NCBI RefSeq assembly: GCF_900096895.1
Contig: NZ_FMYO01000002.1
Span: 186,001 to 250,000, forward strand
Origin: Acinetobacter kookii
Lineage (GTDB): Bacteria; Pseudomonadota; Gammaproteobacteria; Pseudomonadales; Moraxellaceae
Direction: 5' to 3'
DNA: 64,000 bases
Part shown: positions 42,117 through 49,045 of the stretch, in pieces
How positions within the stretch are numbered: position 1 is the stretch's first letter
How the letters are laid out: each line of letters starts with the position of its first letter
Made by a program: the position numbers and the translations under genes
Notes under the pieces: model-generated
What the model was told of the DNA's origin: nothing
Database searches by the model: none
What the model saw: only the letters and a program-made list of their open reading frames with translations

Positions 42117-42899
42117 ATGAACAACGCGCAATGGCTCGATGAAGTAAAATTTAACGAACAAGGTCTGATCCCTGCCATTGCCCAGCATCATCAAAGCGGC
42201 CGTGTGCTAATGGTGGCCTGGATGAACCGTGAGGCTTTGGCGCTCACTGCCGAGAAAAATCAGGCGGTATATTTCTCCCGTTCACGCAACAAGTTATGGC
42301 ACAAAGGTGAAGAATCCGGTCATTTCCAGACTGTGCATGAAATCCGTCTGGACTGTGATGCCGACGTGATTATTTTGCAGATTGAACAGCATGGCGGTAT
42401 TGCCTGCCACACCGGTCGTGAATCGTGTTTCTATCGTAAATTGACTGCAAATGGCTGGGAAATTGTCGATGCACAGTTAAAAGATCCAAGCCAGATTTAT
42501 GCTGAAAAATCAACCAACCCGCATACCCTGGCCATGAATGCCTCGACTGCCCGTTCGGAACAGGTTGAAGTACTGGACTATTTGGGCCAGATGATGGCAG
42601 AGCGCAAGAAAGCCGACCCGGATTCATCTTATGTCGCCAAGCTGTATCACAAAGGCTTGAACAAAATTCTGGAAAAAATTGGTGAAGAAAGCGTTGAAAC
42701 CATTATCGCAGCCAAAGACTTTAAGTCTGAAGCCAATGCAGACAATAAAAACGACCTGATCTACGAAGTTGCCGATTTGTGGTTCCACACCATTGTGATG
42801 CTGGGTTATTTTGACCTTGACCCACAACTGGTATTAAACGAGCTGGCTCGTCGCCAAGGCTTATCCGGATTGGTTGAAAAAGCCAATCGTCAGCATTAA
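42117..42899 (+). CDS. hisIE: Bifunctional phosphoribosyl-AMP cyclohydrolase / phosphoribosyl-ATP pyrophosphatase
   Basis: This fusion carries out steps 2 and 3 of histidine synthesis. The N-terminal HisI part (about 1-115) has [22 protein letters not shown] and the metal ligands in DCDADVI and [11 protein letters not shown]. The C-terminal HisE part (about 150-258) has [23 protein letters not shown] and a YEVADLWFH helix. The linker of about 35 residues is Ala/Ser-rich. No other his gene is nearby. It is followed after 15 bp by a helicase gene on the same strand, which may be co-transcribed. Confidence 0.95.
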
Positions 42900-42914: not shown

Positions 42915-44420
42915 GTGTTAGTAGCTAAAAAGCCCAATCCCACCTATGAGCAAGCACTTGCCATAGATAATGCGCGTCTGGGCAATTCCTTCAAGGTGAT
43001 TGCCTATGCTGGCACAGGTAAAACCACCACCCTGCAAATGATCAGTGATGCCATGCCCGAGCGCCGTGGCATGTATCTGGCGTTTAACAAGGCCATTGCA
43101 GCAGAAGCACAAAGCAAGTTTCATCGCAACATCGACTGCCGAACCTTTCACTCGCTGGCTTTTCGCAGTGTGCCACGCGGCGTCACCGACAAACTTCGCC
43201 TGCCACGTTTAAGTCCGAGTTTTATCGCCAAGGAATATCGGCTGCAACCGATTACCCTGCGCCGGATGATGGGCGGCCGTTATGAAAAATATGTCATGAT
43301 GCCGTCGCGTCTTGCCAGTCTGGTGGCCAATGCGGTCAGCTATTTCTGCTCGACCAGTTCGCAATATCCGGCACCGCGACACCTTCAGGCACCGAGCTGG
43401 TTACATCCAGATGATATTGAAGAATTACAGAAACATTTATATCCCGCCATTGAACGGCGCTGGCTGGAATCGATTGATCCCAATCATCAGGCCGGTATTG
43501 GGCATGATATTTATCTGAAACTCTGGGCGCTGTCTGAACCCAATATTCCAGCAGACTATGTACTGTTTGATGAAGCACAAGATGCCGATCCATTGATGCT
43601 CGGAATTTTGCTGCGTCAAAGAAATACCCAGGTGATTTATGTCGGCGATGCCCATCAACAGATTTATGCCTGGCGTGGTGCGGTCAATGCCATGCAACAG
43701 CTGCCGCTGCCGGAATCGCGCCTGACCACCTCGTTCCGTTTTGGTGAAGAAATTGCCTTGAATGCCAACGCCATTTTGGGTGCATTAAATGAAACCGTGC
43801 CCTTGCTTGGCAATCCGCAGCTGAATTCTAAAGTGGTGAATAAACCGCATACCAAACAGCGCGATGCAATTTTGTGCCGTACCAATGCCCGTGCCATGGA
43901 ACTGCTGCTGTCCGGACTGGTGCATGGCGACAAGGTCAGCTTGCAGGCCGATCATGTCAAATTAAACCGTTTTGTCGATGCCGCCAGCATGCTGAAACAG
44001 GGTCGCCGCGTGACTGATGTGCCGGAACTGGCCTGGTTTAATTCATGGCACGATGTACATGAATACTGTGAAACCAATGATGGCAGTGACATCAAACCCT
44101 TGGTGAAACTGGTGGATGATCACGGAACCGATCCCCTCAAAAGAGCCTTGGCCAAAATCACCCCGATTGAACAGGCTGACTACATTATTTCGACCGCACA
44201 TAAAGCCAAAGGACTGGAATGGGATCGTGTGCATATCGAAGATGACTATCAATTTAAGGTCAATGAAAAAGACCATAAAATTAGTGACGAAGAGTTAAGA
44301 TTGCTTTACGTGGCCTGTACACGTGCTAAAGTGAGTTTAAATATTCACCACATTTACGATCTGGTACAACAGCTGAAAAAGCAGATGCCGGTATCGCTGC
44401 GTAAAGCTGTGGGAGAATAA
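42915..44420 (+). CDS. UvrD/Rep-type SF1 helicase, FBH1-like
   Basis: This compact 501-residue superfamily 1A helicase has Walker A AYAGTGKTTTL (31-40), motif II LFDEAQDADP (217-226), motif III GDAHQQIYAWRG (244-255), TAHKAKGLEWD (427-437) and YVACTRAK (465-472). The short size and the HKAKGLEW form resemble the helicase core of FBH1, which disrupts RecA/Rad51 filaments, more than full UvrD (about 720 residues). The start is a GTG 15 bp after hisIE with no clear ribosome site, so translational coupling is likely. The next gene, a RecF-like ATP-binding protein, is 30 bp downstream. Confidence 0.85.
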   Translation: MLVAKKPNPTYEQALAIDNARLGNSFKVIAYAGTGKTTTLQMISDAMPERRGMYLAFNKAIAAEAQSKFHRNIDCRTFHSLAFRSVPRGVTDKLRLPRLSPSFIAKEYRLQPITLRRMMGGRYEKYVMMPSRLASLVANAVSYFCSTSSQYPAPRHLQAPSWLHPDDIEELQKHLYPAIERRWLESIDPNHQAGIGHDIYLKLWALSEPNIPADYVLFDEAQDADPLMLGILLRQRNTQVIYVGDAHQQIYAWRGAVNAMQQLPLPESRLTTSFRFGEEIALNANAILGALNETVPLLGNPQLNSKVVNKPHTKQRDAILCRTNARAMELLLSGLVHGDKVSLQADHVKLNRFVDAASMLKQGRRVTDVPELAWFNSWHDVHEYCETNDGSDIKPLVKLVDDHGTDPLKRALAKITPIEQADYIISTAHKAKGLEWDRVHIEDDYQFKVNEKDHKISDEELRLLYVACTRAKVSLNIHHIYDLVQQLKKQMPVSLRKAVGE

Positions 44421-44450
44421 TTTTCGCTTCGGATGCAAGGCAGGTGTTTT

Positions 44451-45818
44451 ATGAAAATTGACTCCATTCAACTCAAACACGCGCTTCATTTTGCCGATCT
44501 CAAGCTGAACTTTAATGACAAGCCCATCACCCTGATTCTGGGCGATCAAAGCTCCGGCAAGACCGGCATTTTAAAATTTACCTATCAGGCACTGACCTGG
44601 TTTGCAGCCCGCTATAAAGACCTGCGTTCTGCCGGTGTGGTGATGCTGGATCAGGACATCATGTTTACCCGCCTGCAGTCCAAAATTGATATTCGGGTTC
44701 ATATTCCTCCCGATATCGGGACTTTAAATGCCGCTAGCGAAGCTGGCGACAAGACCCTGACAACCTGTGACTGGCAAATTTATAAAACTTTAAACAGTCA
44801 TGGCATTGGCACCAGCAAAGCCGAAACCCAGCAATTAGACAATCTGGTGGAGCTCTATCATAACGCGCTGAAGCACGATCAACAGCAAGGCTTGCCCCTG
44901 ATTGCCTATTACCCGGCAGAACGCTTTGTCCATGAAATGAATATTCAGAGCAAAAATAATCCGGTGGTGTTTCAGACTTCACATGCCTATGAAATTTCCA
45001 CCATTCCCTATACCACCTTTAGCCGTTTCTTTGAGTGGTTTCGTGAAATCAGCGATATTGAAAATGCCCAGATTGCGCAGCTGTTTCAGCAGCTCATTAC
45101 CAATTCGTCCATCCAGAAAAATAAAGACAAAGATTTTTTACAGCACTTGGTCAATGCCCAGAAGCAAATGAATGCGCCAAGTCTGGATGCCTTAAAACAG
45201 GCTCTCAGCACCGTTCTTCCCAATTTTGAAGATATTTATGTGCAGTATCAGCCCAAATTGCAGCTGATGGTGAGTTATGCGGGAAAAAGCATGCTTTATC
45301 AGCAACTTTCCAATAGTGTTAAAAACTGGATCGCCCTGGTGGGCGATATTGTACGGCGTTTGTGCCTGCTCAATCCCAAAAGTTTATATCCCTGTCTGGA
45401 AGGCGATGGCATTTTGCTGATTGACGCGATTGATCACCAGCTCGATCAAAATACTTCGCAAGTGATTTTACAGCGCCTGCATCAGGCGTTTCCGCGCCTG
45501 CAAATTGTTGCCACCGGCAACCGCATGGAATTACTGGAACATGCAGCCGAATATCAGTGTTTAAAACTGGAACATAAGCAGCTGTTTGATATGCAATTGC
45601 AACCGCTCAAGGAAGAATTTGATTCAATTTATGAAAATCTTGTGTTTAATGAGGAAGTGATTGAAGCCGATGCCTTAAATGAGCCTGCATCAGAAAGTAT
45701 TACCCCGCAAAGCCTGCTAGAGCAGATCCAGCAGCATTTAACGCCAGAACAACAAGCAGAATTATTGCACTTAATCCAACAACCGGATGACACCTCTTCC
45801 TCTCATCCTATTTCCTGA
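44451..45818 (+). CDS. COG3950-like (RecF-type) ATP-binding protein with degenerate ATPase motifs
   Basis: This 455-residue protein has the layout of COG3950-type ABC/RecF ATPases: Walker A GDQSSGKT (31-38), YYPAERFV (153-160), FFEWFREISDIENA (193-206) and GDIVRRLCLLNP (298-309). Three key sites are altered. The ABC signature LSDG/LSGG is LSNS (286-289), Walker B IDEID is IDAID with Ala326 in place of the catalytic Glu, and the H-loop THS is TGN (355-357). It may bind ATP but hydrolyse poorly. An acidic Gln-rich tail (about 405-450) follows. I start at the ATG at 44451, with AGG upstream; the frame opens at 44433. It pairs with the helicase gene. Confidence 0.7.
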   Translation: MKIDSIQLKHALHFADLKLNFNDKPITLILGDQSSGKTGILKFTYQALTWFAARYKDLRSAGVVMLDQDIMFTRLQSKIDIRVHIPPDIGTLNAASEAGDKTLTTCDWQIYKTLNSHGIGTSKAETQQLDNLVELYHNALKHDQQQGLPLIAYYPAERFVHEMNIQSKNNPVVFQTSHAYEISTIPYTTFSRFFEWFREISDIENAQIAQLFQQLITNSSIQKNKDKDFLQHLVNAQKQMNAPSLDALKQALSTVLPNFEDIYVQYQPKLQLMVSYAGKSMLYQQLSNSVKNWIALVGDIVRRLCLLNPKSLYPCLEGDGILLIDAIDHQLDQNTSQVILQRLHQAFPRLQIVATGNRMELLEHAAEYQCLKLEHKQLFDMQLQPLKEEFDSIYENLVFNEEVIEADALNEPASESITPQSLLEQIQQHLTPEQQAELLHLIQQPDDTSSSHPIS

Positions 45819-46213
45819 CACAAAAGATTGAAAGGTGTTAAAAATACCCGGTATGTTTAAAAAATTCAGTTTCAGCATTGCATCTGGCTAAACACGCTAC
45901 GCCCCTCAAGCATAGAGGGGCGTATAATAAGTCAGGCAAGTATTTATGAAATGTCAACCAACCCGGGTGTGTGCGCAAAAATAATCGATGTTGTTTTACT
46001 CATGCAATAAGATCATGTATATTTAAAGTTTAATAGTAAAATCCGATTCTACTATGACTTTTTTTACAGGTTGCGCAACACAGCTTGTTTTTCATTTTTT
46101 AACTCAAACCGGCTTTCAAGATTGAGAAGTTTGGATTGTTCTTTGCAGTCCTGTAATCCTTGAAAGATAAGATTCACGCTTAGGTGTTTATAGCCTAACT
46201 CACGACTTTGGAT
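45819..46213. other. Gene-free gap before mrpA with a 10-bp hairpin
   Basis: At 45898-45924, TACGCCCCTC, loop AAGCATA, then GAGGGGCGTA is a perfect stem without a T-run, so its role as a terminator is doubtful. The rest is A/T-rich and presumably contains the mrp promoter; no small gene or RNA was recognised. Confidence 0.55.
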
Positions 46214-49045
46214 ATGAGTGTGCTACCGATTATTATCTTGTTACCGTTAGTACTAGGCACAACCCTTGTCTCGTGGCTGAAATTTTCACGCGGGGTAACT
46301 GCTTTAGCGGCTCTAGGGGTCAGCCTGAGTAGTCTGACCCTGTTACTGCTGCAAGCTAAAGAGGTGTTTAATGGCGGAACAGTCACACAAACCTGGGCCT
46401 GGTTACCCCAGTTAGGCATCGATTTAAGCTTTCGTCTGGATGCCTTGGGCCTGTTATTTTGCTTGCTGATTAGCGGGATCGGAACGCTGATTTATATTTA
46501 TGCCTATTATTATTTAAATCCTAGAAACTCCCTAAGCAAACTCTATCTTCTGCTGATGCTGTTCATGGCTTCCATGCTCGGTATCTCTCTTTCTAACAAT
46601 TTAATTTTATTACTTATTTTTTGGGAACTCACCAGTATTTCCTCTTTCCTGCTGGTCGGTTACTGGAGCAATTATGAGGCTGCGCAGCGCGGTTCGCGTA
46701 TGGCTCTGACCATTACCGGCATGGGCGGTCTGGCCATGCTGGGCGGCTTCATTCTGCTCGGTCAAATCACCGGAACCTATCAGATTGACCAGATTTTGAC
46801 GATGAAGGATCAAATTCAAAGTCACTCGCTCTTTGTTCCAAGCTTGTTGCTGATTTTACTTGGTGCCTTCACCAAAAGTGCACAGTTTCCGTTTCATTTC
46901 TGGCTGCCGAATGCCATGGCAGCACCAACGCCGGTCTCTGCCTATTTGCACTCCGCCACCATGGTCAAAGCCGGTATTTTCCTGCTGGCACGTTTTACGC
47001 CAATTTTTGTCGGTGCGGCGCTGTATCACAATATTGTGACTTTTGTGGGCCTGTTCACCCTGTGTATGGCTGCCTTCTTTGCCATTTTCAAGGAAGACTT
47101 AAAAGGCTTGCTGGCGTATTCCACCATCAGTCATTTGGGCCTGATTGTGTGCTTACTGGGGATCGGATCACCCCTGGCCGTTGCAGCAGCCATTTTCCAT
47201 ATTATTAATCACGCGACCTTTAAAGCCGCCCTGTTCATGCTGGCCGGGATCATCGACCATGAAACCGGAACCCGGGATTTGCGTAAGCTTAGCGGCATCT
47301 GGCAACTCCTGCCCTTTACAGCCACCCTGACCATGATCACCGCCGCCTCTATGGCCGGTGTGCCCCTGACCAATGGCTTCCTGTCCAAGGAAATGTTCTT
47401 TACCGAACTTTTGGCCAACCTCTCTGGTCCGGTGCTCATTGTTTCCGCCATTATGGCAACGCTGGCCGGAATTTTTGCCGTGGCTTATTCGGTGCGTTTG
47501 GTGCATGGGGTATTTTTCGATGGTCCGATTGGCTTAGAGGTACCCAACCGACAAGCCCATGAACCGCCGCTGGGCATGCGCGTACCTGCAATCCTGCTGG
47601 CAGTTTTATGTATTTTGGTTGGCCTGTTACCGGCGCTGCTGGTGGAAAATATTGTCAATGCAACTGCACGTGCCAGCACTCAAATGCCTGACTTTGCCGG
47701 TAGCCATTTAGCCATCTGGCATGGTTTTAACCTGCCTTTGCTGATGAGTATTGTTGCACTCTTGGGTGGGGTAATTTTCTATTTTTCTTTGGCCAAAGGC
47801 GGTCGCATCCGGGAAATTGATCTTGATCCTATCTTGGGCAAATTCCAGGGCAGAGTGCTGTTCGATTTATTTTTAAAACATCTGTTACTGAGTTCACGCA
47901 AGTTCAAACGGCAAACTGAAAATGGTTCACTGCAAAGCTATCTGATGTGGATTGTGCTGTTCAGTGGCGCTTTGCTGAGCATCCCCTTTATCAATCAGGG
48001 CCTGACTACAGGCACACGTGAACTTGTCCATGCTCCCGCGATTGCCATTGTGTTGTGGCTGCTGTTGTTCTCAGCCTGCTGGATGATGCTGTGGTTTCAC
48101 CATGAACGGATCAAGGCCGTGCTGATTAGCGGTGCGGTTGGCCTTGTCGTGACTCTGGTGTTTGTGACCTTATCGGCACCCGATCTGGCCCTCACCCAAA
48201 TTACGGTCGATGTGGTCACGACAGTATTGCTGCTGATGAGCCTTTCCCTGCTGCCACAGCTTACCCCTTATGAATCCAGTGTTTCACGGCGCTGGCGCGA
48301 TGCCCTGATTGCCATTGGCGGTGGTCTGGGCATCGGCTGGATTAGCTGGCTGATGCTGACCCGTGACCACAACTCGATTTCATGGTTTTTCATGCAGCAG
48401 TCGCTTCCACTCGGTGGCGGTTCCAATGTGGTCAACGTGATTCTGGTCGACTTCCGGGGTTTCGATACCTTTGGGGAAATTACCGTCTTGGGTATTGCTG
48501 CGATTGGCGCACTGTGTCTGATGGATGGCATGCGTGCACACGGCACCACCATCACCCAGGGACTGACCTACCGCTTTAATCCCTCTCCGCTGATGTTCCG
48601 TATTACCGCATCCTGGGTATTGCCTCTGGCACTGGTGGTGAGCCTGTATATCTTCCTGCGTGGCCATAACCTGCCCGGCGGTGGTTTCATTGCCGGCCTC
48701 ATTACCTCTTTGGCCCTGGTGATCCAGTACATTGCCTTGGGACAAGATCAGGCTGAACAGATGCTGAGAGCCAAATCAGGCCGTTTATATGAAATCTGGA
48801 TTGGTTCAGGTCTAAGCATTGCGGGGCTGACCGGACTGGCTGCCTGGTTCTGGGGACGTCCATTCCTGACCAGTGCCCATGTGCATATCGCTCCGCCCCT
48901 GTTGGGGGATATCCATTTGGCCTCTGCAGCATTATTTGATGTCGGTGTCTATGTCACAGTCGTGGGTGCCACCATGTTGATGATTTCAGTTCTGGGTGAC
49001 TCGCGCCACTCCAGCATGTCCGGTCCTGTATTGAAGGGGGAATAA
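46214..49045 (+). CDS. mrpA: Mrp Na+/H+ antiporter subunit A, fused to subunit B
   Basis: This is the first gene of a six-gene mrp (mnh/pha) operon coding for a multisubunit Na+(K+)/H+ antiporter that supports sodium and alkali tolerance. The 943 residues form an NuoL-like proton-channel domain (about 1-500, with FHFWLPNAMAAPTPVSAYLHSATMVKAG as the core), the DUF4040-like segment LSAPDLALTQITVDVV, and a C-terminal MnhB-type part with RGHNLPGGGFIAGL. No separate mrpB follows, so A and B are fused. I use the ATG at 46214; a TTG two codons earlier is also open. Confidence 0.93.
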   Translation: MSVLPIIILLPLVLGTTLVSWLKFSRGVTALAALGVSLSSLTLLLLQAKEVFNGGTVTQTWAWLPQLGIDLSFRLDALGLLFCLLISGIGTLIYIYAYYYLNPRNSLSKLYLLLMLFMASMLGISLSNNLILLLIFWELTSISSFLLVGYWSNYEAAQRGSRMALTITGMGGLAMLGGFILLGQITGTYQIDQILTMKDQIQSHSLFVPSLLLILLGAFTKSAQFPFHFWLPNAMAAPTPVSAYLHSATMVKAGIFLLARFTPIFVGAALYHNIVTFVGLFTLCMAAFFAIFKEDLKGLLAYSTISHLGLIVCLLGIGSPLAVAAAIFHIINHATFKAALFMLAGIIDHETGTRDLRKLSGIWQLLPFTATLTMITAASMAGVPLTNGFLSKEMFFTELLANLSGPVLIVSAIMATLAGIFAVAYSVRLVHGVFFDGPIGLEVPNRQAHEPPLGMRVPAILLAVLCILVGLLPALLVENIVNATARASTQMPDFAGSHLAIWHGFNLPLLMSIVALLGGVIFYFSLAKGGRIREIDLDPILGKFQGRVLFDLFLKHLLLSSRKFKRQTENGSLQSYLMWIVLFSGALLSIPFINQGLTTGTRELVHAPAIAIVLWLLLFSACWMMLWFHHERIKAVLISGAVGLVVTLVFVTLSAPDLALTQITVDVVTTVLLLMSLSLLPQLTPYESSVSRRWRDALIAIGGGLGIGWISWLMLTRDHNSISWFFMQQSLPLGGGSNVVNVILVDFRGFDTFGEITVLGIAAIGALCLMDGMRAHGTTITQGLTYRFNPSPLMFRITASWVLPLALVVSLYIFLRGHNLPGGGFIAGLITSLALVIQYIALGQDQAEQMLRAKSGRLYEIWIGSGLSIAGLTGLAAWFWGRPFLTSAHVHIAPPLLGDIHLASAALFDVGVYVTVVGATMLMISVLGDSRHSSMSGPVLKGE

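Follow-up and report, generated by a model that had tools for sequence, protein, structure and literature searches.

A 64,000-nucleotide stretch of the 3.09 Mb genome of Acinetobacter kookii (contig NZ_FMYO01000002.1, positions 186,001 to 250,000; hereafter, the window) encodes an FBH1-like helicase and, 30 bp downstream, a member of the PtuA family of defence ATPases that has lost its motifs for ATP hydrolysis. Our data suggest that this pseudo-ATPase is a defence protein that turned into an ATP-holding partner beside a conserved helicase, in most of the sampled Acinetobacter species. More specifically, we see an even chance that this former defence ATPase is now an ATP-holding accessory subunit of a recombination helicase. 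A sequence-only reading had already described the two genes, the 30-bp gap, and three lost residues in the ATPase, and had suggested that the protein binds ATP without hydrolyzing it. These points hold up, but its label of a RecF/COG3950-type ATPase has to be corrected.

We assign the ATPase (44451..45818 on the + strand, 455 amino acids) to the PtuA family, which includes the ATPases of Septu and of retron I-A, because both sequence models and the predicted fold match PtuA. The closest model in PADLOC is the PtuA model PDLC00271 (202 bits, E = 5e-60), although it gives far higher scores to two relatives with an adjacent PtuB (526 and 546 bits). The NCBIfam model for the PtuA of retron Ec78 (NF041760) matches with 150.9 bits (E = 5.5e-44). 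This is below the cut-off of 500 bits, but the cut-off is not decisive, as it is also missed by three relatives whose motifs are intact (337, 346, and 447 bits). By both sequence and fold, the best matches in the PDB are PtuA chains of retron I-A. The fold was predicted by AlphaFold2 from an alignment of 80 sequences (mean predicted local distance difference test of 81.3, predicted template modelling score of 0.77). When this model was compared to solved structures with VIA-align, rows 1-21 were all Septu or retron I-A chains (Z = 27.2-36.6), including 9vhe_C from a retron (Z = 36.6) and 8eea_B from Septu (Z = 34.2), and the next family was AriA of PARIS (Z = 19.5). The top structural match covers 324 residues at 22% identity, and Foldseek likewise gave PtuA structures. 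These matches span residues 1-387; the remainder of the protein is weakly predicted and is uncovered in most of them.

Besides the predicted fold over these residues, the ATPase shares with the PtuA of Septu the Walker A motif, the Walker B aspartate, and other family residues (e.g., YP..R, F..FF.W.R...D.EN, and GD..RR). It differs by having lost the signature glycine, the catalytic glutamate, and the H-loop histidine. In the window, Walker A is retained (GDQSSGKT, 44541..44564). The glycine of the signature motif is a serine (QLSNS, 45303..45317), the catalytic glutamate of Walker B is an alanine (ILLIDA, 45411..45428, within LLIDAID), and the histidine of the H-loop region is an asparagine (TGN within VATGN, 45507..45521; all on the + strand).

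The loss of these motifs is genus-wide. We aligned 102 orthologues of one frame each, namely 101 from our genus survey plus G145 (G and L numbers are our labels for genomes and loci). The signature position is never glycine (it is Ser in 79, Thr in 22, and His in 1), while all 16 of the aligned PtuA homologues from outside the orthologous group have glycine there. The Walker B glutamate is found in just 5 of the 102 (the others have Gln in 48, Ala in 34, His in 7, Asn in 5, and Asp in 3), and the H-loop histidine in 1, with 11 having a histidine one residue later. All three residues are lost in 96 orthologues, five keep only the glutamate, one keeps only the histidine, and none keeps more than one. 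The lysine of Walker A (Lys37), the Thr/Ser of Walker A, and the aspartate of Walker B (Asp325) are each present in 102 of 102. A further change is at residue 332 (45444..45446, + strand), which is a histidine in 16 of 16 aligned relatives and an invariant aspartate in all 102 pseudo-ATPases. Some other residues, such as D57, R59, N169, T188, A206, Y266, and Y394, are also conserved in the pseudo-ATPases but not in their relatives.

More distant homologues have intact motifs. The signature glycine, the Walker B glutamate, and the H-loop histidine were all retained in 20 of 20 homologues from outside the orthologous group (16 judged by alignment, and four retron-linked PtuA proteins of Acinetobacter, L171-L174, judged separately). 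These 20 include six from the same genus (two Septu-like and four retron-like loci), nine from the same family, and five from the class. The nine are drawn from the 14 non-Acinetobacter genomes of the family with a PtuA-like match (G159, G195, G199, G224, and G249 were left out), and weak secondary matches to the ATPase in G028, G019, and G095 were left out of the motif reading as well. When the class was surveyed, the ATPase had matches at 1e-30 in 5 of 369 genomes, namely the window's own genome and four others, which together have five matching loci. At the other PtuA loci, 10 of 10 scanned neighbours match PtuB or HNH models, and the remaining neighbours were judged by eye. In the whole genome of A. 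kookii, there was no match at E of 1 to the one PtuB model that we searched with (PDLC00344). Among the loci examined, the absence of the nuclease, the loss of the motifs, and the helicase neighbour occur together. Two of the Septu-like PtuA-PtuB pairs (L106 and L107) lie beside integrase-like genes in genomes that also carry the pseudo-ATPase (G047 and G079), and in another genus of the family, PtuA-PtuB pairs lie among type I restriction-like genes (L161 and L164; both contexts judged by eye).

The ATPase is also under purifying selection. In 110 selected close pairs, its ratio of nonsynonymous to synonymous substitution rates (dN/dS) had a median of 0.068 (range 0.031-0.154), as compared to 0.013 for the helicase. 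(The pairs were chosen to have dS of 0.1-0.9 for the helicase and below 1.3 for the ATPase.) So, the ATPase is not decaying, even though its rate of evolution is well above that of the neighbouring genes (mean distance of 0.60 versus 0.10-0.18, with 0.10 for the helicase). Given the conserved losses, the retained Walker A, and the purifying selection, these sequences are most naturally read as those of a protein that binds ATP without hydrolyzing it in the normal way. Among five solved PtuA sequences, three differ at the same Walker B site (9o4a_A has LIAAID, 9nnk_C has LIDQIE, and 22et_E has LIAEIE), and the entry for 9o4a is titled as a mutant complex. These changes were presumably made to stop hydrolysis.

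The helicase (42915..44420, + strand, 501 amino acids from a GTG start) contains the Pfam domains UvrD-helicase and UvrD_C, and its motifs are intact: AGTGKT (Walker A) and DEAQD are invariant across a 33-row alignment of orthologues. The start codon is uncertain, as most of the orthologues align only from residue 4-6 onwards. Among solved structures, the closest to the helicase is F-box DNA helicase 1 (9xzj_F, E = 5.2e-44, residues 10-475, or 466 residues), as the sequence-only reading had it; the matches to UvrD (E = 3e-4) and GajB (E = 3e-3) are weaker. The helicase also matches the GajB models of PADLOC (E = 3.3e-16), though FBH1 is far closer among the solved structures. What the bacterial protein shares with FBH1 is the helicase core of this type of superfamily 1A helicase. 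The match spans 371-858 of the 972 residues in 9xzj_F, and the ~370 residues that precede it are absent from the bacterial protein. The F-box of FBH1 presumably lies in this N-terminal part.

We propose a role for the helicase in recombination for two reasons. First, Fbh1 acts on recombinase filaments: it disrupts Rad51 filaments and inhibits strand exchange by RecA (PMC4148199, the part of the paper on which we draw). Second, in six prophage-like loci of Acinetobacter, a helicase that is 45-46% identical adjoins YqaJ-like and RecT-like genes (L108, L110, L125, L126, L127, and L130; Pfam confirmed YqaJ and RecT in L110 only, and L126 has a phage integrase). Among 50,697 phage records, 256 also have a relative of the helicase, and phages of Escherichia, Pseudomonas, and Acinetobacter account for many of these.

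The two genes have a fixed place in the chromosome. In the window, a HisIE-type gene (42117..42899) ends 15 bp upstream of the helicase, the ATPase is followed by a gene for an mnhA-type subunit of a cation/H+ antiporter (46208..49045), and all four genes are on the + strand. The gap between the stop codon of the helicase and the start of the ATPase (44421..44450) depends on the choice of start codon. The open reading frame of the ATPase spans 44433-45818, and its first in-frame ATG, at 44433, would leave a gap of 12 bp, but the orthologue matches support the ATG at 44451, which leaves the 30 bp. Scans for promoters and terminators were at chance level. Across the genus, 92 of the 102 genomes measured have 14-49 bp between the two genes, and the other 10 have 61-377 bp. 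Our set of named loci holds the best 80 of 214 ATPase relatives, all of which are titled as Acinetobacter except for one that is labelled Moraxellaceae bacterium. The order hisIE-helicase-ATPase-mnhA is found in 69 of 69 of these loci that display all four genes. This fixed synteny rules out a mobile island. The scan of viral contigs found no relative. Two contigs that were deposited as Acinetobacter phage MD-2021a do match the pair (CAKLQH020000005.1, or H16, locus L276; and CAKLQF020000005.1, or H17), but L276 carries hisI, the helicase, the ATPase, and mnh genes in their chromosomal order and resembles a bacterial chromosome.

The helicase is present in all 119 of the sampled Acinetobacter genomes, and the ATPase has a match in 105 of them. 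An ATPase orthologue lies directly behind the helicase, on the same strand, in 103 genomes (three of these copies are damaged: G009 and G033 are split into two frames and G023 has an early stop). Remnants of the ATPase are found in G029 and G037, and 14 genomes have no match. No ATPase orthologue was seen away from the helicase locus. So, the pairing of the two genes in the sequence-only reading holds in one direction: the ATPase is not seen apart from the helicase, but the helicase occurs without it in 16 of 119 genomes. In our sample of the family, 167 of 199 genomes and 8 of 16 genera have the helicase. Outside of Acinetobacter, a PtuA-like match (1e-20) was found in 14 of 133 genomes; 13 of these also encode the helicase, but the two are adjacent in none. 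Similarly, there was no ATPase beside the helicase in the nine helicase loci that we examined in other genera. Within Acinetobacter, the deep branches L099, L100, and L167 already have degenerate copies of the ATPase, and there were at least nine changes in its presence or absence on the helicase tree, which together suggest that the ATPase was gained early and then lost repeatedly. (The tree was a quick one with long branches, and nine is the count with the fewest changes, which cannot separate gain from loss.)

How might a PtuA protein that does not hydrolyze ATP be useful to the cell? We propose that the pseudo-ATPase would hold ATP as a structural ligand, assemble into oligomers as other PtuA proteins do, and attach to the helicase as an accessory subunit. 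By analogy with the PtuA-PtuB and GajA-GajB pairings, this subunit might then tune the action of the helicase on recombination intermediates. That the ATPase controls the helicase is our hypothesis. A bolder version, which we put forward tentatively and which is less likely to be right than wrong, is that across Acinetobacter, a Septu-type PtuA was tamed and frozen in its ATP-bound form, and that it now regulates an FBH1-type anti-recombinase as a permanent subunit and sets how much homologous recombination is allowed (in repair, natural transformation, and phage recombination). If this is true, the tamed PtuA would be nature's equivalent of the Walker B variants in the solved PtuA structures.

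Several observations weigh against an accessory subunit of the helicase. First, all 119 genomes have the helicase, but 14 of them lack the ATPase and 2 more have just a remnant of it, so the helicase does not need the ATPase, and presence of the ATPase has changed at least nine times. Second, we saw no sign of co-evolution that is specific to the two proteins. Across 67 named loci, partial correlations between evolutionary distances came to 0.38 for ATPase-helicase, 0.36 for ATPase-mnhA, 0.31 for ATPase-hisIE, and 0.46 for helicase-mnhA. Third, the ATPase keeps its place next to mnhA just as constantly as its place next to the helicase. At 9 of the 18 ATPase-less Acinetobacter loci that we examined, the frame of mnhA comes next, ~255-550 bp beyond the helicase (L111, L114, L116, L117, L118, L120, L124, L186, and L187), and other genes follow in the rest. 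Fourth, the helicase is still constrained in lineages that lack the ATPase (dN/dS of 0.02-0.16, relative to the nearest relative with the ATPase). In six such lineages that lie among ATPase carriers (L104, L105, L114, L116, L124, and L187), the helicase has dN/dS of 0.023-0.039. For the comparison set of 86 of 104 ATPase-bearing tips (kept if dS was 0.2-1.5), the median is 0.021, the quartiles are 0.015-0.040, and the highest value is 0.117. All six are thus above the median yet inside the quartiles, and the helicase may be mildly relaxed in these lineages. (The other 14 ATPase-less tips have dN/dS of 0.082-0.160, but at a near-saturated dS of 1.26-1.81 from distant neighbours.) Finally, 5 of the 102 orthologues retain the Walker B glutamate.

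The lack of specific co-evolution, the repeated absence of the ATPase while the helicase is kept, and the equally constant adjacency of mnhA would all be expected if the pseudo-ATPase works alone or with some other partner, and if its position behind the helicase reflects co-transcription only. We consider this unlikely, though it is a serious contender, because the orthologue adjoins the helicase, in the same orientation and usually at a short distance, in every one of the 103 genomes that have it, and because no unlinked orthologue was seen. Also, G254 retains both the helicase and the ATPase with an insertion between them (L183:1829-3590), which is an IS200/IS605 element that carries OrfB_IS605 and Y1 transposase genes.

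A second possibility is that the pair is an anti-phage or anti-plasmid module, in which the pseudo-PtuA acts as sensor and scaffold, and the helicase, as the effector, attacks phage DNA or recombination intermediates. PtuA is after all a defence family, and the ATPase evolves fast and is often absent. Gabija has a shared design. Its GajA is an OLD-type ATPase with a TOPRIM nuclease. The part of PMC10681800 that we cite describes Gabija as pairing an ATPase protein with a UvrD-like helicase. However, membership in Gabija is ruled out, as the sequence-only reading had also concluded: the ATPase has no match to TOPRIM in a Pfam scan to E of 1. The ATPase is also of the PtuA type, and among solved structures, the helicase is nearer to FBH1 than to GajB. 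Membership in Septu or a retron is ruled out by the lost motifs and the lack of a partner: no PtuB was found in the genome with the one model used, the ATPase is fixed behind a core helicase, and its neighbours (hisIE, the helicase, and mnhA) include no adjacent reverse transcriptase or HNH gene, in contrast to retron I-A (Ec78/Ec83). The retron-linked PtuA proteins of Acinetobacter also retain their motifs. PtuA-like ATPases with other partners are already in print, as the ptuXYZ operon likewise combines such an ATPase (PtuY) with new partners. These are a DUF262 protein and a PIN-YoeB protein, with no helicase in the part of the source that we cite (PMC11980606). Among the matches listed from the open-access literature, we found nothing on the helicase-ATPase pair of Acinetobacter.

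Overall, a defence module seems doubtful. Throughout the genus, the pair stays at a single chromosomal site and is not part of variable islands, and no nuclease was found. The helicase is widespread in the family and, outside of Acinetobacter, it lacks such an adjacent ATPase wherever we looked. Furthermore, in the Septu system EcB88, mutating Walker A or Walker B of PtuA abolishes immunity, although the cited part of that study does not separate hydrolysis from binding (PMC13096335).

Third, the ATPase could be a divergent enzyme that still hydrolyzes ATP by using other residues. Walker A and the Walker B aspartate are invariant, Asp332 replaces a histidine, 11 of 102 orthologues have a histidine one residue past the H-loop position, and 5 of 102 have the Walker B glutamate. 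Nevertheless, this is very unlikely: the signature glycine is lost in 102 of 102, the glutamate is lost in 97 of 102 (mostly to Gln or Ala), and three of five solved PtuA sequences differ at that same Walker B site. Finally, the damaged copies, the remnants, and the 14 genomes without a match might suggest that the motif losses are drift towards a pseudogene, but decay of the gene is hardly credible and is ruled out by dN/dS (no higher than 0.154 in any of the 110 pairs), besides which the Walker A lysine is invariant and the losses are common to 102 orthologues.

PtuA proteins have been studied as parts of the effectors of phage defence. The pseudo-ATPases of Acinetobacter are a natural, genus-wide set of PtuA proteins that lack the hydrolysis motifs and the nuclease and that are kept by selection beside a core helicase. 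With this set, one could directly investigate which functions PtuA has besides hydrolysis and the control of a nuclease, and whether defence ATPases find a second use in recombination. Since some Acinetobacter species are hospital pathogens and some are naturally transformable, a protein that regulates a recombination helicase in this genus would matter for the uptake of genes.

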